DNA from: Woeseiaceae bacterium
GTDB lineage: Bacteria; Pseudomonadota; Gammaproteobacteria; Steroidobacterales; Woeseiaceae
Direction: 5' to 3'
Length of the DNA stretch: 64,000 bases
Assembly: GCA_021773135.1 (NCBI GenBank)
Contig: JAJFKP010000044.1
Coordinates: 1-64,000, forward strand
The number at the start of each line of letters is the position of its first letter. Position 1 is the first letter of the stretch. The translations under genes and the position numbers were made by a program. This document shows positions 24,068 to 47,431 of this stretch, one piece after another. The notes under the pieces are model-generated. The model searched no databases, was not told the origin of the DNA, and saw nothing but the letters and a program-made list of their open reading frames with translations.

Positions 24068-27000
24068 TCAATGAAAGTCCCGCGACGTGACCGTTAACTC
24101 TCCTAATAAATCACTGTGATCGACTAGTTTCCTGGCAATCACATGCGTGACTTTCCCTTCTTTTTGCAACTCGCCCTGCACACCCATTAACCGAGCATTT
24201 AGCAAAATATCACGCTGTTCATCAGCGATTCTTTTCCATACGATCAGGTTGCTGCAACCGGTTTCATCCTCCAGGGTCACGAATGTTACGCCACTCGCTG
24301 TCCCGGGCCTCTGCTTGGTAATAACCAGTCCCGCAATGCTGATTCGCTTTCCGGTTGGCAAAGCGTTTAGCTGCTCTGCTGTCAAATACCTAAAGACATT
24401 CAAATCCGCGCGAATAAGGGCCATTGGATGACGACCGAGGGTCAGGCCGAGGCTCTGATAATCCGCCACGATATCCTGTCCTTCCGTAGGTCGCCGCAAC
24501 ATTGGCGTCGCTTCATATCGGTCCAGGGAGGAAAACAGGGATGTGGGCTTCTCTACTCCCGCTACGGTCCAGCTGACTTTATGGCGATGACCTTCAAGCG
24601 ATTTCAGTGCTCCTGCCGCGGCAAGCGCACTCAACTCACGCCGGTTCAGTCCGGTGCGCTCGAGCAATTGTTGAATGCTCCGGTAGCGATCCATGCGCTT
24701 TGCGACGAGTAACTCGCCCGCCACTTCCGATAATCCCTTGACCTGTCGTAATCCCAGGCGAAGCGCCGGCTCACCATGCTCCGCCCGCTCAATGCTCGAA
24801 TCCCACCCACTCTCATTGACATCAACGGGCCTGACCTCCACACCATGACGCCGCGCATCCTGGGTTAGCTGTGACGCCGAATAAAACCCCATCGGCTGAC
24901 TGTTCAGCAACGCACAGGTAAACATCGCGGGCGTATGACACTTTAGCCAGCAGGATACGTAAACCAGTAGCGCGAAACTGGCTGAATGAGATTCAGGGAA
25001 TCCGTATTCGCCGAAGCCTAATATCTGCTGAAAAATCTGTCGTGCAAAATCCTCCTCATAGCCACGCTCCCGCATGCCACTAATCAGCTTTTCTTCAAAA
25101 GGCCCCAGTCCGCCACGCCGTTTCCAGGCAGCCATCGCACGTCTCAGGCGATCCGCTTCACCGGGTGTAAAGCCTGCTGCCACCACGGCAAGTTGCATCA
25201 CCTGTTCCTGAAAGATGGGCACTCCCAAGGTCCGCTGCAGAACTTCCCTGACGTCATCACTGGGATACTCGACTGCTTCCTCGCCGTTTCGCCGCCGCAG
25301 GTAGGGATGCACCATGTCACCCTGAATAGGTCCGGGACGGATAATGGCAACTTCAATGACAAGATCGTAATAACAGCGTGGCCGCAGGCGCGGCAGCATT
25401 GCCATCTGTGCACGCGACTCAATCTGGAAAACACCCATGGTGTCCCCCTCACAGATCATGTCGTAAACCTCGCCGTCTTCAGGCGGTACCGTAGCAAGCG
25501 TGTACTCTCTCCCATCGTAACCCTTGATCAGATCAAAGCTGCGTCGAATAGCCGTGAGCATCCCGAGACCAAGCACATCGACTTTGAGCAACCCCAGGTC
25601 TTCAAGATCGTTCTTCTCCCATTGAATGACCGTGCGATCATCCATGCTCGCATTCTCGACAGGTACGAGCCCTGACAATGGCCCGTTCGAAATGACAAAA
25701 CCGCCGACATGCTGCGAAAGATGGCGAGGAAACCCCAGCAACTGTTTAACCAGGTATAACAGGCGTTTAATAAGTGGGCTCGCAGGATCAAGACCCGCCT
25801 CCAGGACGCGACTGTCATCGACCTCACTACCATCCCACCACTGCATTGACCTGGCCAGCCTGTCGACCTGCAACCCGCTTAAACCCAGTGCCTTACCGAC
25901 ATCACGTAACGCACTTCGTGGCCGATAGGTAACCACCGTTGCGGCCAGGGCCGCTCTCTCCCTGCCATACTTTTGATAAATATATTGAATGACTTCTTCG
26001 CGACGCTCATGTTCAAAGTCAACATCAATATCCGGCGGCTCATTGCGCTCTTTGGAAATAAAGCGCTCAACCAGCGTTGCCATTCGTTCCGGATCAACCT
26101 CTGTAATGCCAAGGCAGAAACATACGGCGGAATTAGCTGCGGAGCCGCGCCCCTGGCAAAGGATGTGCTGACTCCTGGCGAAAGCGACAAGGTCATAGAC
26201 TGTTAGAAAAAAGGGCTCGTATTTAAGCTCACGAATCAATTCGAGCTCATGTTCAACCAGCTTGATAACCTTTCCGGGCGTGCCGGCCGGCCAGCGCTTT
26301 TGCATCCCTGCTTCGGTCAGGTGACGTAACCAGCTTGTTGACGTTTCACCTTCAGGCACCAACTCATCAGGATATTCATAGCGCAATTCATCAAGAGAAA
26401 AATTAATTAAATTGGTTATACGAAGCGTTTCCTGAAGCAGCGCGGCAGGATAAATTCTGCGAATCGTTTCTCTCGGCCTGAGATATCGCTCGCCGTTGGG
26501 ATATAAAGAGAACCCCGCTCGATCTACGGTGACCCGCTCGCGAATGGCCGTCACCGTATCCTGTAGTGCACGACGCTCACGACTGTGCATGTGGACATCG
26601 CCAGTGGCGACAAGAGGAAGGCCCAATGCCTGGCTCAGTCTTTGCAGGCGCTCAAGGCGCAATCGCTCAAGCCCGTCTGCGAGTAACTCCACTGCAATCC
26701 ACAGCCGGCCGCGAAAAATCTCTGTTATCCATGCATCTTCAGCGCCCAGCAGTAACTGGTTGGCAGGAATCCACAGCACGAGACAATCTTTCAGTCCGTC
26801 ATGAAAATCATCTGCAGTGAGTTTATAACTGCCCTTTTCGGCTGCCCGCCTGCCACGGGTAATCAGTTCGCATAACGCTGCGTAGCCGGCACGGCTTTGC
26901 GCCAGCACAACCAGCTTCAGACCACTTTCCAGGCGAAACTCAGAACCGATGATTAACTTCTTGAGGCCTTTTTCTTTGGCGCTAACATGCGCCCGCACGA

Positions 27001-27145
27001 CACCGGATACTGAGCACTCATCCGTAATCGCCAGCGCCTCATAGCCCAGCTTTGCGGCAGTTTCGACAAGTTCTTCAGGATGAGATGCGCCCCTCAGGAA
27101 CGTAAAATTGCTGAGCGCATGCAGCTCGGCATAACCGGAAGCCAT
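24068..27145 (-). CDS. dnaE2: Error-prone DNA polymerase III alpha subunit DnaE2
   Basis: A 1025-residue C-family polymerase, the catalytic part of the ImuA-ImuB-DnaE2 mutasome that carries out damage-induced translesion synthesis. A PHP domain opens the protein (AELHALSNFTFLRGASHPEE). The polymerase core follows, with GRGSAANSAVCFCLGITEVD and PPDIDVDFEHERREEV, which carries catalytic aspartates. An OB domain lies near the end (ISIAGLVITKQRPGTASG). It lacks the tau- and clamp-binding tail of DnaE1, as expected. Last gene of the lexA-imuA-imuB-dnaE2 run, separated from imuB by about 250 bases holding a tandem repeat. Confidence 0.96.
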   Translation of the reverse strand: MASGYAELHALSNFTFLRGASHPEELVETAAKLGYEALAITDECSVSGVVRAHVSAKEKGLKKLIIGSEFRLESGLKLVVLAQSRAGYAALCELITRGRRAAEKGSYKLTADDFHDGLKDCLVLWIPANQLLLGAEDAWITEIFRGRLWIAVELLADGLERLRLERLQRLSQALGLPLVATGDVHMHSRERRALQDTVTAIRERVTVDRAGFSLYPNGERYLRPRETIRRIYPAALLQETLRITNLINFSLDELRYEYPDELVPEGETSTSWLRHLTEAGMQKRWPAGTPGKVIKLVEHELELIRELKYEPFFLTVYDLVAFARSQHILCQGRGSAANSAVCFCLGITEVDPERMATLVERFISKERNEPPDIDVDFEHERREEVIQYIYQKYGRERAALAATVVTYRPRSALRDVGKALGLSGLQVDRLARSMQWWDGSEVDDSRVLEAGLDPASPLIKRLLYLVKQLLGFPRHLSQHVGGFVISNGPLSGLVPVENASMDDRTVIQWEKNDLEDLGLLKVDVLGLGMLTAIRRSFDLIKGYDGREYTLATVPPEDGEVYDMICEGDTMGVFQIESRAQMAMLPRLRPRCYYDLVIEVAIIRPGPIQGDMVHPYLRRRNGEEAVEYPSDDVREVLQRTLGVPIFQEQVMQLAVVAAGFTPGEADRLRRAMAAWKRRGGLGPFEEKLISGMRERGYEEDFARQIFQQILGFGEYGFPESHSASFALLVYVSCWLKCHTPAMFTCALLNSQPMGFYSASQLTQDARRHGVEVRPVDVNESGWDSSIERAEHGEPALRLGLRQVKGLSEVAGELLVAKRMDRYRSIQQLLERTGLNRRELSALAAAGALKSLEGHRHKVSWTVAGVEKPTSLFSSLDRYEATPMLRRPTEGQDIVADYQSLGLTLGRHPMALIRADLNVFRYLTAEQLNALPTGKRISIAGLVITKQRPGTASGVTFVTLEDETGCSNLIVWKRIADEQRDILLNARLMGVQGELQKEGKVTHVIARKLVDHSDLLGELTVTSRDFH

Positions 27146-27217
27146 CTCTCACGTCACCTCGTGAGCCGCGTTTCTGCGGTCATTGACATTAATGAGATGG
27201 CCTGTTCGCGTTCGCAT

Positions 27218-27411
27218 ATCCCATGTAAGCACGCCGCTCATCATGTAGAGGTTCATTGGCAGCACTAACCTAAGTGCCCGCTCGATTCAGGGTGAGCCGT
27301 CATCCGAACATCCCTACTACAAACGTGCTCGAACCATCACTGCAGAGATTCATTCGAAAGCACTACCCGGAAACCCGCTCAGTTCAGGGTGAATAGTCAT
27401 CCGAACATCCC
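27218..27411. repeat. Degenerate tandem repeat, unit about 92-97 bp
   Basis: Two diverged units, about 27218-27309 and 27310-27406, with a third partial unit beginning at 27407 inside the imuB 3' end. Shared blocks in order are ATCCC, CATCA, AGAG(G/A)TTCATT, GCACTA, CCCGCTC and TTCAGGG. The clearest pair is 27277-27314 against 27374-27411, which match at 33 of 38 positions by my count. On the minus strand the inner copy repeats the imuB ending GMFG-stop. This looks like duplication of the imuB tail. Confidence 0.65.
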
Positions 27412-29088
27412 ATGTAAATACCAGAAGGACGAATCCCGGGCACGATCCTTAAAGATCCAGAGGTGTATGCCGCGAGGATTACGTGCGACAAAATAATCCC
27501 TGGCAATGCCATCAGCATCCCACCAGCCGGTTTCGAGTCGCTCCGGCCCGTCAAGTATTTGCAACACGCCCTGATAACAAGGCATGTCATTTTTTATCGC
27601 CAACAACTCCGGCGCCTGCAGCATCCACAGGGGACGTCTTAACACGAGACTATTCGTGCGGTGCACATCTGTCAGTAATGCCAACTCGTCAGGATAGCCC
27701 GTCAAATCCCTGTAGTTGGAAGCGCTCGCACAATGCGGCACACCGTCAAATACATCTCGCCGCCGCCATGTATATTGAGGCCGGTGCTCAGCCACCGTCT
27801 CGATACCATGGACAGTCTCTTTCCCCATGCGGGCACAAAGGCGCTCAGCGAGATGAGTAATAGAAGTATTACGTCCCTGGCGCTCCTTTTTGGTGAACGG
27901 CAAAACATCGTTCTCTGCAGTAAAACCCTGTGTCTGACCAGCGCTCAATCGAATCGCAATAACTGGTGCAGGCAGTGGCAAACGATCAAATTTAATTTCA
28001 AGCAAATCAAACCAGTGTTGCACGGCCCGATCAGCCTGCACGCAGCCTAATGACAGGTGTGTTGCAGGTTCCTGCAGGTGAAAAAAAATAAACTCAACAT
28101 GCTGAACCAGCATTTGTCGACTAAGTAAAAAACGCTCCAGTTTCTTAAGCAATTCGTGGCAGACATTCAGAAGCAAATGACTATCACTCTGCTCCTCATA
28201 GAGGTCGTAATCAGCAACAAAACGCTCAGGCGCCCGATAACTCGCGCGTGGATCCGGCATGGCGCCTGTGGCCCGATCAAACTCCAGCAGGCGACTGGCC
28301 CCAAAACGTTTGGCGAATCCCTGTCTTGGCAAACGCAAGGCCTCACCGACCACCGTGACCCCCATACCCTGTAATGCCTTGCAGACAGCCTCTGGCCACC
28401 CAAGGCAGGTAATGGGCAAAGGACTCAGCTTTCCAACCAGGTGACGTGCATCGCGAATACAAACCTTCTGCCCGGCTCGTGCTAACCAGGTCGCCGCAAG
28501 CGGCGTAGGTGCGATTGCTACCCTGACATGAAAACCCTGGCTGACGAAGCCCCTGACAATGCGTTCACGCAACGTCTTTAAGCCGCCAAACAGCCGCAGG
28601 CTTCCCGCTAACTCCAGAAGCAATAACGAAGGTTTCTCGACGGAGGTAAATGCAGTAAATTTTTCAGACCACCCGGCCAGGTCTTTTAAAACACGCGCTT
28701 CCCGATCCGGCCGTCGTTCCTCAAGTCTCAGTGTCGGCATGAGCGCCAATGCAGCATTAACACTCAGTCCCGGGCTAATCCCTGCTGCCCCGGCCTCGGC
28801 ATTAGCCAGCAACACCCTGCGGATACCCTGCCCTTCCTCGAAAACTGCCGCAGCTTGCGGAGAATTAATGACGGCCTCAAGTGGCAGCATCGGCAAATAG
28901 ACACACAGCCACAGCTGGCGAAGTGAGCCAACAGGAGCCGACAATGGAGATGGGTTTTTAAAATCTGTCGCCACCAGCGACAGTTGCTCAGGTGCCTGGC
29001 GCGGCTGTGCCCTGCTGTGCGGGTTCTTTAACGAGGAAGTCGGGGCGACTTCCCGGGAACGAGCAGATGGTTTATCCGGGATCGGCAT
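27397..29088 (-). CDS. imuB: Mutasome Y-family-like protein ImuB
   Basis: A 563-residue homologue of Y-family polymerases that lacks the catalytic acidic residues. In the mutasome it is the hub that binds the beta clamp, ImuA and DnaE2. The conserved fold starts at about residue 58 (LWLCVYLPMLPLEAVINSP) and the tail reads FWYLHGMFG. There is an N-terminal extension of about 57 residues, low in structure, containing QLSLV at 35-39, a near match to the clamp-binding motif QLxLF. Three bases separate it from imuA. The start at 29088 is the only good one close to imuA, so the extension is probably real. Confidence 0.9.
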   Translation of the reverse strand: MPIPDKPSARSREVAPTSSLKNPHSRAQPRQAPEQLSLVATDFKNPSPLSAPVGSLRQLWLCVYLPMLPLEAVINSPQAAAVFEEGQGIRRVLLANAEAGAAGISPGLSVNAALALMPTLRLEERRPDREARVLKDLAGWSEKFTAFTSVEKPSLLLLELAGSLRLFGGLKTLRERIVRGFVSQGFHVRVAIAPTPLAATWLARAGQKVCIRDARHLVGKLSPLPITCLGWPEAVCKALQGMGVTVVGEALRLPRQGFAKRFGASRLLEFDRATGAMPDPRASYRAPERFVADYDLYEEQSDSHLLLNVCHELLKKLERFLLSRQMLVQHVEFIFFHLQEPATHLSLGCVQADRAVQHWFDLLEIKFDRLPLPAPVIAIRLSAGQTQGFTAENDVLPFTKKERQGRNTSITHLAERLCARMGKETVHGIETVAEHRPQYTWRRRDVFDGVPHCASASNYRDLTGYPDELALLTDVHRTNSLVLRRPLWMLQAPELLAIKNDMPCYQGVLQILDGPERLETGWWDADGIARDYFVARNPRGIHLWIFKDRARDSSFWYLHGMFG

Positions 29089-42414: not shown

Positions 42415-43350
42415 ATGAGTTTCGAATTTGATATTCCCGACGTTGTGCAAATTGATGGCGTGGATGGCTCGCCCTATCCGCGCCCAATGCGGGTCGGCTC
42501 CGAGAAGGCACGCCAGGAAGAAGTCGCGCAAACGTCTGGCATGCCAATAACTGAATTTGAAGGGAAAAGTAATCCCTACATCGACTATGAGAGCATCGAC
42601 CTGCTGCTGAGCCTGCAGCACCCGCGCTCAGGCGGATATGACGAAATGTGTTTCATCATCATGGGACAGGCCAAGGAACTGCTGTTCAAGGCGGCGTACT
42701 TCGAGCTTTACAACACCAGAACACGGATTCGCGAAGACGATTTGCCCAATGCAACGGTGCTACTGGACAGGACGAAAAAGATTACGCGGCAGATCGTCGG
42801 CTTCTGGGATGTGCTGTCGACGATATCGACTGATGGCTTCAACGAATTTCGTGATTATCTCGACGTGGCGTCCGGCCAGCAGTCGTTCATGTATCGTCAC
42901 GTTGAATTCATCCTTGGAAACAAGCGCGAGCAGATGTGTTCCGTGCACAAAAACGTGCCACATGTATATCCCGCAATCCTCGAAAACTTCGCATCACCCA
43001 GCATTTATGATGAGGTTATCAGGCTGCTGGCCAGGCGGGGTTATGACATCGCCCCGGAGTGCCTGGACCGGGACTGGACCGAAACCTACCAAGCGCATCG
43101 CAGCATCGAGTTGGCCTGGCTCGATATCTATCGCAACGCCGGCCCGCAAAACGATCTTTATGTGTTGGGTGAAAACCTGACTGAACTCGCCGACCTGATA
43201 GCACAATACCGTTGGCGTCACTTCGTCACCGTCGAGCGAATTCTGGGCTTCAAACCCGGCACCGGCGGTTCCGCTGGCGTTGGCTGGCTGCGCAAGATCG
43301 TCGACCATCGTTTTTTCCCGGAACTCTGGAACATTCGCAGTGAGCTGTGA
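42415..43350 (+). CDS. Tryptophan 2,3-dioxygenase-like heme protein
   Basis: A 311-residue protein of the TDO superfamily. Matching Xanthomonas TDO, I see the tyrosine pair Tyr55/Tyr58, the carboxylate-binding Arg161 (FMYRHVEFILGNK), the proximal heme ligand His269 (RWRHFVTVERILGFK) and Thr283 in PGTGGSAGVG. The active-site His55 of the Xanthomonas enzyme, in FIIQHQTSEL, is replaced by Gly84 (FIIMGQAKEL). The substrate may therefore not be tryptophan. The N-terminus is about 30 residues longer than usual. No kynurenine-pathway gene is near; it leads the sulfatase-peroxidase operon. GGAG twelve bases upstream supports the start. Confidence 0.82.
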   Translation: MSFEFDIPDVVQIDGVDGSPYPRPMRVGSEKARQEEVAQTSGMPITEFEGKSNPYIDYESIDLLLSLQHPRSGGYDEMCFIIMGQAKELLFKAAYFELYNTRTRIREDDLPNATVLLDRTKKITRQIVGFWDVLSTISTDGFNEFRDYLDVASGQQSFMYRHVEFILGNKREQMCSVHKNVPHVYPAILENFASPSIYDEVIRLLARRGYDIAPECLDRDWTETYQAHRSIELAWLDIYRNAGPQNDLYVLGENLTELADLIAQYRWRHFVTVERILGFKPGTGGSAGVGWLRKIVDHRFFPELWNIRSEL

Positions 43351-43354
43351 CCGG

Positions 43355-45088
43355 ATGACGAACGAAAGAAGCTCAAGGCGACTTCTTGCGAAACTTTTTG
43401 GCGGCTTGGCCGCACTGCTTCTCCTGCTGTGCGGTTGCAGTAACCTAGCCGACTCAAACCAGGACGAAACGCAGCCACCAAATCCTGCCCTGAAACCACC
43501 TAACATCCTGTTCATCGTCGCTGACGATCTCGGCTACACAGATTTAGGCGTTTATGGCAGCGAGATTGAAACGCCAAACCTGGACATGCTGGCGCGCAAC
43601 GGCGTGATGTTCAGCAATTTCTACACTGCGCCAACCTGCTCCCCGACACGCGCGATGCTGCTTTCAGGGGTCGATAATCACCCCGCGGGAATGGGCAGCA
43701 TGTACCGGGAACTAGCGCCAAACCAGGTCGGCAAAACCGGCTATGAAGAACAGCTGCATACGCGCGTTGCAACCATCGCCGAGCTGCTGGCCGATGCCGG
43801 CTACCACACATACATGACTGGCAAATGGCACCTGGGATACGACCTCGACAACAGCCCGTACGCACGGGGCTTTGAGCGTTCATTTGCGTCACTGGCGGGA
43901 GGTTCCGGGCATTTCGATTTGTTGCCGATTGTTGGTCCCGGCAAAGCGCCATATCGCGAAGACCGTGACCTGCTTGAAACTCTCCCGCAGGACTTTTACT
44001 CAAGCCGCTTTTTTACACGGAAAATGATCGACTACATCGACGACAATCGTGAGGATGGTCGCCCCTTTTTCGGCTACCTGGCGTATACGGCGGTTCACTG
44101 GCCGCTGCAGGCGCCTGCAGAATCCATAGCGAGGTTTAGCGGCCGTTACGATGACGGATACGATGCGCTGCATGCGCGGCGCGTCGCAAAGCTCAGGGCG
44201 CTCGATCTTTTGGCGGAATCGACCCAACCCTATCCGCGCCTCGCGGAGGAACCCGCCTGGACGGACCTGACCGCCGATCAAAAAAAACGGGAAGCGCGCA
44301 TGATGGAAATCTATGCGGCGATGATCAGCGATATCGATGTCTACGTGGGCGATCTGATCGCATATCTGAAGTCGATCGATGAGTTCGAAAACACGTTTAT
44401 TGTGTTTATGTCGGATAACGGTGCGGAGGGTCATCCCGTCGGCACGTCCATCGGCGCCGTGGCCCGCTGGCTGGAGCAATGCTGCGACAACAGTTACGAG
44501 AACATGGGCAAACGGGATTCGTTCCTCTGGTACGGTGCCAGTTGGGCCCGAGCAAGCGTCGGCCCCTGGCGTATGTTTAAAGGATTCACCTCAGAAGGCG
44601 GCATTCGTGCGCCGGCATTCGTGCATTATCCCAAGCTCGGCGGCCAACAGATCAACGAGGCCGTAGTGACTGTGAAGGATGTCATGCCGACGATTCTCGA
44701 CCTGGTTGGCATTGATCATCCCGGTCTCACCTACAAAGGGCGTGAAATCGTACCCATGTCCGGCAAGTCCATGCTGCCGATGCTGCGCGGAATTTCGGAT
44801 TCGATCCACCAACCTGATGAGGCGATCGGCTGGGAACTGTTCGGCAAAACCGCGATTCGGCAAGGCGACTGGAAAATTGTGCAGGAACCTGACGATGCCT
44901 TCTGGACAGTTCGAAACCCGGTCGCAGAGGCCTATCGCTGGCGACTCTTCAATCTTGCCGAAGATCCGACGGAGCTTAACGATGTGTCGGGACAGAATCC
45001 CGAAAAACTACAGGAGATGATCCGGCTTTGGGACGAATATGAGGAGCGTAACGGCGTAATAATTCCAAATCAGGTCATGGGGTACTGA
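43355..45088 (+). CDS. Arylsulfatase-type sulfatase, lipoprotein-like
   Basis: A 577-residue exported sulfatase. The N-terminus is a signal peptide ending LLLCGC; Cys28 may be lipidated, although Cys at the -2 position is atypical. Metal-binding NILFIVADDLGYTDLG starts the catalytic domain. The formylglycine site is Cys95 in TCSPTRAMLLSG (C-x-P-x-R), then GKWHLGY and FMSDNGAEGHP. Activation needs a formylglycine-generating enzyme, not encoded here. It removes sulfate esters from an unknown substrate in the periplasm. The TDO-like gene ends four bases upstream, the next gene starts six bases downstream. Confidence 0.9.
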   Translation: MTNERSSRRLLAKLFGGLAALLLLLCGCSNLADSNQDETQPPNPALKPPNILFIVADDLGYTDLGVYGSEIETPNLDMLARNGVMFSNFYTAPTCSPTRAMLLSGVDNHPAGMGSMYRELAPNQVGKTGYEEQLHTRVATIAELLADAGYHTYMTGKWHLGYDLDNSPYARGFERSFASLAGGSGHFDLLPIVGPGKAPYREDRDLLETLPQDFYSSRFFTRKMIDYIDDNREDGRPFFGYLAYTAVHWPLQAPAESIARFSGRYDDGYDALHARRVAKLRALDLLAESTQPYPRLAEEPAWTDLTADQKKREARMMEIYAAMISDIDVYVGDLIAYLKSIDEFENTFIVFMSDNGAEGHPVGTSIGAVARWLEQCCDNSYENMGKRDSFLWYGASWARASVGPWRMFKGFTSEGGIRAPAFVHYPKLGGQQINEAVVTVKDVMPTILDLVGIDHPGLTYKGREIVPMSGKSMLPMLRGISDSIHQPDEAIGWELFGKTAIRQGDWKIVQEPDDAFWTVRNPVAEAYRWRLFNLAEDPTELNDVSGQNPEKLQEMIRLWDEYEERNGVIIPNQVMGY

Positions 45089-45094
45089 CACAAC

Positions 45095-45757
45095 GTGTCC
45101 TTGTATAGAATACGCGCCATGTTCGGTGTCGCGTTACCTTTCATTTCTTTCATATTATTGCTCGGTCTGGCGATTTCGCCCAAGGCTGTGCTTGCACATG
45201 GCAGCGTTACGCCAGATGCCGACCTGTGCATCATTCGTATCGGCTACTACCGTGCGCATTTCAAAATATACCTGCCGCAGACGCGCGGCCATAAAGAATA
45301 CTGTGAAGATATTCCCGCAACAGGCACTGCAACTTTCGTCATGGAATACGAACATAGCGGGCTTGGCAGCGTTCCCATTGATTTTCGCGTTATCCGTAAT
45401 GTCACAGGCAAAGGTGTATTCACGATATTGGAAGATGTAGACCAAATTAGCAATCTGGATGACGTTACGGTATTCCACTATCCGGCAACGATTCAGCCGG
45501 ATGTGTTTACCTACCTGTATCCATTCGACGAACAGGGCGAATTCGTGGGCATCGTCACCGTGCAAGATGCGGACACTGGCGAAATGTATACAGCCGTGTT
45601 CCCTTTCAGAGTCGGCTTCGCCGGAATTCCGATCTGGGTCTGGTTCATCGTTGTTGCAGTTGGCCTGCAACTTAATTTTCTATGGATGAACGGCTCGTTT
45701 GCACGCTGGCGAAAGCAGCTCTCTGCGCGGGGCGGTGTGGGTGCTGCACATGCGTAG
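45095..45757 (+). CDS. Exported membrane-anchored protein, function unknown
   Basis: A 220-residue protein I do not recognise. It has a signal peptide (about 1-35, cleavage near VLAHGS) and a periplasmic beta-rich domain (about 35-175) containing Cys44 and Cys69, perhaps a disulfide. A C-terminal transmembrane helix (IPIWVWFIVVAVGLQLNFLW) ends with a basic cytoplasmic tail. A GTG start at 45095 gives the signal peptide a basic n-region (Arg5, Arg7); an ATG at 45119 would remove it, so I prefer GTG. The first residues of the mature part, HGSVTPDADLC, could bind metal. It overlaps the next gene by eight bases. Confidence 0.65.
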   Translation: MSLYRIRAMFGVALPFISFILLLGLAISPKAVLAHGSVTPDADLCIIRIGYYRAHFKIYLPQTRGHKEYCEDIPATGTATFVMEYEHSGLGSVPIDFRVIRNVTGKGVFTILEDVDQISNLDDVTVFHYPATIQPDVFTYLYPFDEQGEFVGIVTVQDADTGEMYTAVFPFRVGFAGIPIWVWFIVVAVGLQLNFLWMNGSFARWRKQLSARGGVGAAHA

Positions 45758-46157
45758 CGGTCGTGCAGTCACCTTACTCGCCGGGCTCTGGCTGGCGGTC
45801 GCAGCGTACGCTCAGGACAGCGGCGAAAAAGAGTCCTGGTTGACGAGATCGGGCTACTACAAAGTCAGCTACACGAGTGAATTGACGCCAGTGACAATCA
45901 ATAAAATTCATCACTGGATTTTTCATATTGAAAACGCCGCCGGTGAACCGGTGAACAATGCCACAGTGAGCATCACCGGTGGTATGCCGGAACACAATCA
46001 CGGTTTACCCACCAGTCCAAGAATGACTGACGCGCTCGACGACGGAAATTACATGCTGGAGGGCGTTCGTTTTCATATGCGTGGCTTCTGGGAGTTAACA
46101 GTTACGGTCGAGGCCGGCGGCCGTCGTGATACCGTGGTAATTCCGCTGACAATATGA
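45750..46157 (+). CDS. FixH/YtkA-like secreted protein
   Basis: A 135-residue protein with a signal peptide (MRSGRAVTLLAGLWLAVAAY, cleaved near AYA|Q) and one immunoglobulin-like domain of the FixH/YtkA type. The family pattern is NKIHHWIFHIENAAGEPVNN, SITGGMPEHNHGLPTSPRMT and GVRFHMRGFWELTVTV. The M-P-x-H-x-H-G segment is typical and may bind copper. FixH-like proteins help cytochrome oxidase assembly; others are uncharacterised. ATG at 45750 is my choice; GTG codons at 45735 and 45741 are alternatives. It overlaps the upstream gene by eight bases and the peroxidase gene by four (ATGA). Confidence 0.75.
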   Translation: MRSGRAVTLLAGLWLAVAAYAQDSGEKESWLTRSGYYKVSYTSELTPVTINKIHHWIFHIENAAGEPVNNATVSITGGMPEHNHGLPTSPRMTDALDDGNYMLEGVRFHMRGFWELTVTVEAGGRRDTVVIPLTI

Positions 46158-47431
46158 CCACCGGCGGCAGAAGAAAAATAATTGCGATGCTTTCGGTCGC
46201 GCTAGCGGCAACGGCATGGTGGCAGTATGGACCACGATCGCCTGCGGAATGGACTACAAGCGACCTGGTCGTGTTGCAGTCACTGTCGCTAAATAATTTG
46301 CCAGCGCTTCCTGCGGACCCCTCGAATGCCGTCGCGGACGAACCACGCGCCGCCGAATTTGGTCACAAGTTATTTTTCGACACCCGGCTCAGTGCAAACG
46401 GCGCAGTCTCCTGCGCAACCTGCCACCAACCGACGCGGCACTTTTCCGACAGCTTCCAGAAAGGCCGCGGCATCGGACTGTCAGGCCGCAATACGCGCAG
46501 CATCGTGGGCTCTGCCTACAGTCCCTGGCAGTACTGGGACGGCCGCCGCGACACTCAGTGGGCCCAGGCACTGTCGCCGCTTGAAGATCCTGCCGAGCAT
46601 GGTGGCAACCGCATGCAGTTCGCCCGCTTCATCTCAATTGAGCCGGTCTATCGTGCGGAATACGAGACACTATTCGGACAGCTGCCCGATTTCTCCGATC
46701 GACGCCGATTTCCCGAAGCGGCCGCGCCGCTGCAGGATCCCACTATGTCTGCGGCCTGGCATTCGATGTCCGCCGAAGATCAGCACAGCGTCAACACAGT
46801 ATTTGCCAATATCGGTAAAGCGATTGCCGCCTACGAGAGATTGTTGTTACCAGGGACGTCACGTTTCGATCAGTATGTACAAGCAGTTGCAGACGATAAG
46901 CAGGAACAGGCAGATGAACTCCTGACCGACGACGAAATAATCGGCCTCCAACTGTTCATCGGCAAGGCGCGCTGCACTGAGTGTCATAACGGGCCGCTGT
47001 TCACCAATAACGAATTTCACAACACCGGCGTTTTGTCTTTTCCAAACGAAGTGCCGGATCGTGGACGTACGGACGGGTTGAAAAAAGTGCTTGCCGATCC
47101 GTTTAATTGCGCTGGAATATTCAGCGATGACCCGAGCAGGCGCTGTGACGAACTGGTTTATGTGCGGACAGGGATCGAACTGCTTGGCGCTATGCGCACG
47201 CCCTCGCTGAGAAATCTTGGCGGCACCGCACCTTACTCACACAAAGGCCAACATGCGACTTTGGCCGAGGTCATAGACCTTTACAACAGGGCGCCACTTG
47301 CGATGATCGGCCATAACGAAGCTGAGGACAAACTCTATCTGAGTCGTCGCGAACGTAAACAGCTCGAAGCATTCCTGAATACGCTCGCTGCCCCACTGGC
47401 CACGGCCGAAAAGTGGCTCGAATTGCCCTAG
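46154..47431 (+). CDS. Diheme cytochrome c peroxidase / MauG family
   Basis: A 425-residue exported protein with an N-terminal anchor or signal (IIAMLSVALAATAWW) and two c-type heme sites, CATCH at 87-91 and CTECH at 274-278. The second heme Met or Tyr ligand region is LLGAMRTPSLRNLGGTAPYS, with the family motif SHKGQHATLAEVIDLYN. The family includes bacterial peroxidases that remove H2O2 and MauG-type enzymes that oxidise protein tryptophans. Which applies is open. The start overlaps the FixH-like stop. Downstream, a small TGCGG hairpin (47438-47452) without a T run separates it from convergent kdsB. Confidence 0.9.
   Translation: MTTGGRRKIIAMLSVALAATAWWQYGPRSPAEWTTSDLVVLQSLSLNNLPALPADPSNAVADEPRAAEFGHKLFFDTRLSANGAVSCATCHQPTRHFSDSFQKGRGIGLSGRNTRSIVGSAYSPWQYWDGRRDTQWAQALSPLEDPAEHGGNRMQFARFISIEPVYRAEYETLFGQLPDFSDRRRFPEAAAPLQDPTMSAAWHSMSAEDQHSVNTVFANIGKAIAAYERLLLPGTSRFDQYVQAVADDKQEQADELLTDDEIIGLQLFIGKARCTECHNGPLFTNNEFHNTGVLSFPNEVPDRGRTDGLKKVLADPFNCAGIFSDDPSRRCDELVYVRTGIELLGAMRTPSLRNLGGTAPYSHKGQHATLAEVIDLYNRAPLAMIGHNEAEDKLYLSRRERKQLEAFLNTLAAPLATAEKWLELP

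Follow-up and report, generated by a model that had tools for sequence, protein, structure and literature searches.

Do five genes packed head to tail on one strand necessarily serve one pathway? This question is raised by positions 42415–47431 of a 64,000-nucleotide stretch (the window) from the genome of a Woeseiaceae bacterium (assembly GCA_021773135.1, contig JAJFKP010000044.1; genome G000, 99.67% complete, contig C39, 1–64000). Here, a gene for a tryptophan 2,3-dioxygenase (TDO)-like protein is followed by genes for an arylsulfatase, a membrane-anchored periplasmic protein, a YtkA/FixH-like protein and a diheme MauG/MbnH-like enzyme. A sequence-only reading had taken the five for one operon that would modify an aromatic or sulfated compound by redox chemistry. 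Comparison with related genomes shows that the five genes are two units that happen to adjoin: unit A (TDO-like protein and sulfatase) and unit B (PmoD-like, YtkA-like and MauG-like proteins). The explanation that best accounts for the locus as a whole is that of two adjoining units of which unit B handles copper in the periplasm by means of a copper site made from a tryptophan; its probability is put at about 0.48, i.e. slightly below one half.

Two units at a variable junction

The coordinates of the open reading frames (ORFs), derived anew, bear out the packing described in the sequence-only reading, i.e. five frames on the + strand with gaps of 4 and 6 bases and overlaps of 8 and 4 bases. 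Unit A comprises the TDO-like gene (42415..43350) and the sulfatase gene (43355..45088), and unit B the PmoD-like gene (45119..45757, with GTG 45095 as an alternative start), the YtkA-like gene (45750..46157) and the MauG-like gene (46154..47431). The 6-base gap between the units depends on the GTG; conservation favors the ATG at 45119, and the gap then becomes one of 30 bases that holds a −10-like box. The low-molecular-weight phosphatase and kdsB genes, named earlier as the flanks of the set, were both seen in the Pfam/family scan of the window, as was lpxK, and the translations agree with the prediction that four of the five proteins are exported.

A gene-neighborhood search for co-occurrence of the five families, which the sequence-only reading had itself named as the check on its five-gene unit, found the complete set side by side in a single one of 60 related genomes, the window's own, which is counted among the 60. 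Singly, the PmoD-like protein is present in 32 of the 60, a TDO relative in 41 (nine of these are close, with 58–100% identity), and the diheme enzyme, at E ≤ 1e-30, in 23. The three genes of unit B recur together in 15 of 33 loci of relatives (the window's included) and in six of eight further loci, and TDO-like and sulfatase genes are adjacent in 7 of 75 TDO loci and in six loci of genus g5. Close TDO orthologs can lie on a different contig from unit B, as in G007 (85%; C26, with unit B on C51) and G011 (80%; C282, with unit B on C92); the gene in G011 is followed by a sulfatase fragment (74%) that ends at the contig end.

The DNA at the junction of the phosphatase gene with unit B also varies. 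A unit B gene lies 98 bp after the phosphatase gene in G011 and 132 bp after it in G008 (distances between match ends), and the junction is filled otherwise in G007 (two other genes, 2938 bp), G005 (one other ORF, 977 bp) and G010 (1359 bp); in G001 and G003, the phosphatase gene was not found within the stretch fetched. Several congeners thus have unit B without unit A, others have different DNA at the junction, and the TDO-sulfatase pair is therefore one of several junction occupants. Because the five genes occur together in a single genome, a promoter-like box lies inside the set and the junction varies, the set has to be regarded as two units. It is proposed that unit A came in at this variable site. 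The GC content of third codon positions fits such an insertion weakly (0.657 for the TDO-like gene and 0.647 for the sulfatase, with 0.549–0.617 for unit B and 0.509–0.577 for four flanking genes), and the junction in G007 and the window is possibly an insertion hot spot. At the position of the TDO-sulfatase pair, G007 (L190 5152–7689) encodes a 471-amino-acid amidohydrolase-like protein, recognized by eye, and a 358-amino-acid protein.

The −10-like box, TATAGAAT (45104..45111, +), starts 15 bases past the sulfatase stop. In an upstream alignment of the window and six congeners, it is kept 7 bases upstream of the same ATG, with one of the seven rows reading TACAATAT; these are 7 of the 10 genomes of the genus that have the PmoD-like protein, with G003, G009 and G006 left out (the last was not inspected). 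An in-frame stop stands directly upstream of the box in L097, with no start codon between, and the box is therefore non-coding there. Unit B thus appears to have its own −10-like box, a putative promoter.

A PmoD-family protein where no copper monooxygenase was detected

The protein of 212 amino acids encoded at 45119–45757 was unknown to the sequence-only reading and matches no Pfam family. A profile of 20 relatives matches PmoD (PDB 6cpd) at E 1e-19, with profile positions 32–164 on residues 4–128 of the chain; no other match in the PDB falls below E 0.4. A signal and a hydrophobic C-terminal segment can be read from the sequences, C37, C62, H47 and H79 are invariant in the 20 aligned rows, and the window protein, with C-x7-R-x-H, is of the Cx9HxnC type. 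By this profile and motif evidence, it is a PmoD/AmoD-family protein of the non-CuA, Cx9HxnC type that is predicted to bind copper.

In the paper on PmoD (Fisher et al. 2018, PMC6189053), the family is defined by a signal peptide, two conserved cysteines and a C-terminal helix; the CuA site is tied to the motif Cx7MxHxnC, and a Cx9HxnC representative, i.e. one of the class of the window protein, binds copper without CuA. The PmoD-like protein shares with PmoD of Methylocystis (6cpd) the signal peptide, the two-cysteine periplasmic domain and the C-terminal transmembrane helix, but differs from it in the replacement of the CuA-motif methionine (by arginine in the window), in its partners, which are YtkA, sometimes as a fusion, and a MauG-like enzyme, and in its genomic setting. 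The PmoD paper considers the protein specific to oxidizers of methane and ammonia, and its methods give a copper membrane monooxygenase (CuMMO) in the genome for 98.5% of 860 PmoD sequences; in the genomes searched here that have the PmoD-like protein, no CuMMO was found.

This result stems from two models. PmoA/AmoA (PF02461) was matched in none of 27 PmoD-bearing genomes of the clade (26 of the 32 relatives and G102), with 3 of 3 controls positive. PmoB (PF04744) was matched in none of the 60 relatives, in a search whose built-in controls gave no match either; 12 of the 13 genomes of the class that match the PmoD profile were searched in the same way, and PF04744 was matched in 10, the exceptions being G000 and G102. 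Of the 32 relatives with the PmoD-like protein, ten have a completeness of 98% or more, and the rest fall below that. The PmoD profile matches 96 of the 366 genomes searched in the order, 13 of 369 in the class and 3 of 398 in the phylum; the window's genome is one of the matches at every level. There is, accordingly, a PmoD-like clade in bacteria without a detected CuMMO.

The mature N-terminus is histidine in 17 of 17 MauG-linked rows and in 9 of 9 PmoD rows from CuMMO genomes, and glycine in 13 of 16 rows linked to a multicopper oxidase. This histidine is possibly a copper ligand; as a histidine-brace mark of unit B it was rejected, given its presence in all nine CuMMO-genome rows.

Alternative partners of the PmoD-like gene

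The neighbors of the PmoD-like gene fall into two sets that exclude each other. At 17 of the 33 loci of relatives, YtkA adjoins the PmoD-like protein or is fused to it (six fused loci in five genomes), and the next gene is MauG-like at 15 of these, the other two (G009 and G042a) lying at a contig end. A multicopper oxidase takes the place of YtkA at 15 loci, one locus (G006) is cut, and at none of the 33 do YtkA and a multicopper oxidase occur together. The eight further loci (8 of 30 picked, from genomes not previously examined, i.e. 8 of 64 newly found genomes) comprise, beside the six with YtkA and MauG, one fused YtkA cut by the contig end and one multicopper oxidase.

In a tree of 43 rows, from which the second copy of G379 was left out as it has no motif match, the PmoD proteins from genomes without CuMMO matches form one group (34 rows, support 100/100). 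The 17 MauG-linked proteins all fall to one side of a single branch, with support of 88/89 and recovery in 86% of 200 bootstrap trees, and the multicopper-oxidase label needs three changes, so that one switch from multicopper oxidase to YtkA-MauG would be the simplest reading. Of the 44 loci examined, 4 have CoxA-type genes no more than 6 kb away. Separately, a ZIP-transporter-like gene divergently adjoins unit B, next to a PmoD-YtkA fusion, in G036 and G027 (L106 6466–7053 and L107 7699–8313); in L106, the one of the two that was scanned, it scores 23.5 bits with PF02535, below the cut-off.

A wider YtkA-MauG pair with a tryptophan signature

The YtkA/FixH-like protein (45750..46157, 135 amino acids) carries the motifs INKIHHW and GGMPEHNHGLPT and exceeds the PF13115 gathering cut-off (44.0 vs 25.9 bits). 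Its profile matches a ‘Copper resistance protein’ (PDB 9ll2) at E 8.7e-5, and family evidence suggests that it may be a copper carrier. The sequence-only reading had cast the FixH-like and the unknown protein as metal or heme helpers; the metal role gains support and can be narrowed to copper, both proteins belonging to copper-protein families (YtkA/CtaK and PmoD).

The association of YtkA with the MauG-like enzyme extends beyond the PmoD-like clade. The MauG-like profile, at E 1e-70, is found in 17 of 369 genomes of the class, and outside G000 and G021 YtkA is encoded directly upstream of, or fused to, the MauG-like gene in 16 of 18 places (14 called by model, G109 and G351 by eye). The two misses are weaker second copies (L255 and L256), although in the latter the frame itself contains a weak match to YtkA. 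None of these 16 regions outside the order has a PmoD-like gene. A MauG relative without any PmoD match occurs in eight of the 60 relatives; the nine loci fetched from them comprise five YtkA-MauG fusions, three with YtkA directly upstream and one (G034) that begins at a contig end, again with no PmoD-like gene in any of the nine. Because the pairing persists without PmoD (in 16 of 18 places beyond the order and in 8 of 9 loci of relatives), YtkA-MauG appears to be a wider core pair that the PmoD-like protein joined in this order. A 2486-amino-acid protein matching the MauG-like profile lies downstream of a YtkA-MauG pair in G102 (L271 23–7483), and an 820-amino-acid frame with two MauG-like matches in a row has YtkA directly upstream in G040 (L336 3288–5750).

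MauG-linked YtkA proteins usually carry an HxW motif and GGMxxHxHGxPT, with small variants. The tryptophan of HxW is present in 36 of 40, i.e. in 16 of 16 with PmoD, 14 of 16 outside the order and 6 of 8 in relatives without PmoD; the 16 rows with PmoD had been chosen by the GGMP motif, so that in these only the tryptophan count is informative. None of the 14 alignable unlinked YtkA domains has tryptophan at that column (phenylalanine in five, leucine and valine in three each, tyrosine in two and serine in one). These come from a class sample of 30 YtkA-family loci, two of which gave no domain; 8 were MauG-linked (seven with tryptophan, one with cysteine), their genes being already in the count of 40, and the tryptophan column could not be aligned in 6 of the 20 unlinked domains.

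The diheme enzyme

The enzyme encoded at 46154..47431 (425 amino acids; PF03150, 126.5 bits) has two heme sites, CATCH and CTECH, and a hydrophobic N-terminal segment, and is taken to be membrane-anchored. All 15 aligned MauG-like members match both the MbnH and the MauG models, and the window enzyme scores far below the cut-off of each (130.8 vs 362.85 bits with TIGR04039 and 118 vs 443.85 bits with TIGR03791, respectively). The checked cysteines and histidines of both CxxCH sites are kept in 31 of 31 MauG-like enzymes, as is Glu148. Tyr377, likewise kept in 31 of 31, occupies the column aligned with methionine in 1iqc, 3o5c and 2c1u, which we take to be the methionine ligand of the second heme in bacterial cytochrome c peroxidases; 6e1c also has tyrosine there in the same alignment. 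Of the earlier designation ‘diheme peroxidase’, the two hemes therefore stand, and the label of a classical peroxidase is doubtful given the tyrosine in place of the axial methionine.

A tryptophan-made copper site: proposal, precedents and rivals

The most likely role of the MauG-like enzyme would be to oxidize the HxW tryptophan of its YtkA partner, using hydrogen peroxide, to kynurenine or a similar product. Together with neighboring histidine and methionine, the oxidized residue would complete a copper site on YtkA. The charged YtkA could then exchange copper with the PmoD-like protein, which would receive it or keep it at the membrane for use by cuproenzymes, for example the heme-copper oxidase.

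Chemistry of this kind has a precedent in MbnH, which makes the kynurenine of MbnP. MbnP and MbnH form a conserved pair of a partner with a conserved tryptophan and a MauG-like diheme protein, occurring far beyond the methanobactin producers (PMC3621798). Unit B likewise pairs a conserved-tryptophan partner with such an enzyme; the differences are that the MbnP model is not among the matches of the 15 YtkA partners and that the window enzyme stays well under the MbnH threshold. CorA binds Cu(I) through His64, His114 and a kynurenine formed from Trp62, and CorB, a MauG-like protein co-transcribed with it, is suggested by the authors to make the kynurenine (PMC3912023). The CorA-CorB and MopE-SACCP systems resemble unit B in having a copper protein encoded beside a MauG-like diheme gene and a tryptophan two residues from a histidine, which in CorA is part of the copper site (Kyn62 and His64), but the partner in unit B is a small YtkA-type domain with the order HxW, and its enzyme reaches the cut-off of neither MbnH nor MauG. 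Finally, CtaK, an extracytoplasmic protein of the YtkA domain family, is implicated in CuA assembly in Bacillus subtilis (PMC13344008); the YtkA of unit B differs from it in carrying HxW and GGMxxHxHGxPT and in having an enzyme partner.

By the tests made, the unit B pair is filed under neither CorA/CorB nor MbnP/MbnH, and it may work like them. A tentative extension, less likely to hold than the explanation of the locus itself, is that YtkA, as a widespread small copper carrier, and the MauG-like enzyme are a further copper pair of the tryptophan-made kind beside these two. In this order, the pair would have captured a PmoD-family protein that no longer belonged to the copper monooxygenases, once taking over from a multicopper oxidase as its partner and becoming fused to it in several lineages. 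No description was found of a PmoD-family protein combined with YtkA (sometimes fused) and a MauG-type enzyme in genomes without a detected CuMMO: among the matches listed in a search of open-licence papers, no title concerns PmoD outside CuMMO genomes, no paper deals with the YtkA-MauG pair and none with YtkA/FixH together with cytochrome c peroxidase and copper.

Several observations weigh against two separate units with a tryptophan-made copper site. The tryptophan is missing in 4 of the 24 MauG-linked YtkA proteins without PmoD (absent in G241, cysteine in G132, tyrosine in G043 and G056), and because of these four it may be structural or replaceable; G043 and G056 lack the signature histidine as well, and the comparison with unlinked domains comprises just 14 of them. 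On the side of the PmoD-like protein, the relative G006 has arginine at H47, the window protein lacks the CuA motif Cx7MxHxnC, and the structure model, computed from a single sequence, is unusable (mean pLDDT, i.e. predicted local distance difference test score, of 44), with confidence confined to the C-terminal helix. In G003 and G009, two more divergent congeners, the box was not seen upstream of the PmoD-like gene; nor is it listed by a consensus promoter scan, and the −35 region is poorly conserved.

The four proteins without tryptophan also favor a reading under which the MauG-like enzyme is a hydrogen peroxide reductase, fed by the PmoD-like and YtkA copper proteins or by another donor, that removes periplasmic peroxide and modifies no protein. 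The solved structure closest to it, 1iqc (E 1e-23; 2.8e-34 with a profile), is that of a diheme peroxidase, and cupredoxins are known electron donors to diheme peroxidases. The tyrosine at the axial-methionine column, shared with 6e1c, speaks against this role, and a peroxidase would not need a steady YtkA partner that usually bears the tryptophan; we consider it unlikely. Unit B could also be a cuprous oxidase that replaced the multicopper oxidase unit, the MauG-like enzyme oxidizing Cu(I) held by the PmoD-like protein or YtkA to the less toxic Cu(II) for tolerance. The either/or occurrence of multicopper oxidase and YtkA-MauG beside the PmoD-like gene and the tree suggest just such a replacement. 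However, no PmoD-like gene accompanies the YtkA-MauG pairs in any of the 16 regions from outside the order or the nine loci from relatives, the pair therefore did not arise to serve the PmoD-like protein, and we know of no diheme cuprous oxidase, all of which makes this function distinctly improbable.

The remaining alternatives concern the link between the units. Although separate in evolution, they could be co-transcribed by read-through in the window species, the promoter of unit A now driving unit B as well and making copper handling responsive to tryptophan. The 30 bases from the sulfatase stop to ATG 45119 contain no terminator-like site in the scan, but the box before unit B is intact and no functional link between the units is known to us, so that such an adoption is given still lower odds than a cuprous oxidase. 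As to the single redox pathway of five genes with copper and heme helpers, the common strand, the short gaps and overlaps, and the recurrence of sulfatases near TDO-like genes in other lineages can be cited in its favor. It was rejected, with a residual probability that is very small, on the co-occurrence in one genome of 60, the promoter-like box inside the set and the other DNA at the junction; the other unit B loci examined, moreover, lack unit A. The sequence-only reading is thus partly confirmed in what it observed and partly supported in how it interpreted the locus, and the best explanation is still that of a unit B with a tryptophan-made copper site next to a separate unit A.

Unit A and another feature of the window

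The TDO-like protein (42415..43350, 311 amino acids) matches PF03301 with 172.6 bits and remains below the TIGR03036 cut-off (302.8 vs 390.7 bits). The two closest TDO loci among named genomes are from Woeseiaceae (85% and 80%). At the distal-histidine column (His55), 80 of 85 aligned TDO proteins, the window's among them, have glycine, 3 have histidine and 2 threonine; the 3 with histidine are other TDO copies, including the second TDO of the window's genome (contig C30; L186 8069–9064). On this alignment, the gene is assigned to a TDO subfamily with glycine at the distal histidine position. Compared with the TDO of Cupriavidus (2nox) and Xanthomonas, the heme histidine, Arg117, Ser124 and Thr254 are retained, whereas the distal histidine is replaced by glycine, Leu28 by glutamate or glutamine and Tyr113 by phenylalanine.

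Relatives of the TDO-like gene adjoin genes for kynureninase and 3-hydroxyanthranilate dioxygenase. Around the 75 TDO loci, an alpha/beta-hydrolase-type cluster is found in 49, in most cases immediately upstream of the TDO gene, and 22 have a kynureninase-type cluster (one member scores 327.2 bits with TIGR01814, cut-off 246.4); L023 (Emcibacteraceae) has 3-hydroxyanthranilate dioxygenase and muconic semialdehyde dehydrogenase upstream of the TDO-like gene. Because kynurenine-pathway genes surround its relatives, unit A is considered tryptophan/kynurenine-linked by the company that it keeps.

The sulfatase (43355..45088, 577 amino acids) is of the Pseudomonas aeruginosa arylsulfatase type: it scores 197.3 bits with PF00884 (cut-off 25), matches PDB 1hdh at E 7.3e-149 over residues 47–569, and its translation shows the C-x-P-x-R motif (CSPTR) and a lipoprotein-like signal. 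Sulfatases 23–32% identical are found near TDO-like genes in 8 of the 75 loci. In three genomes of genus g5 (G015:C67, L192 5940–8683; G025:C37; G029:C50), a second TDO copy lies near a sulfatase relative (49%), divergently in L192, and in all three sulfatases occur near both TDO copies.

Elsewhere in the window (24068–29088), a gene for a DnaE2-like polymerase, read from the translations, adjoins one for an ImuB-like Y-family protein; the arrangement looks like an SOS mutagenesis cassette.

Significance

A PmoD-family clade without a detected CuMMO and with two alternative partner sets means that the function of PmoD could be studied apart from the monooxygenase, and such proteins point to general periplasmic copper handling. 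The MauG-like enzyme and YtkA are a compact enzyme-substrate candidate for a copper site made post-translationally, small enough for co-expression.

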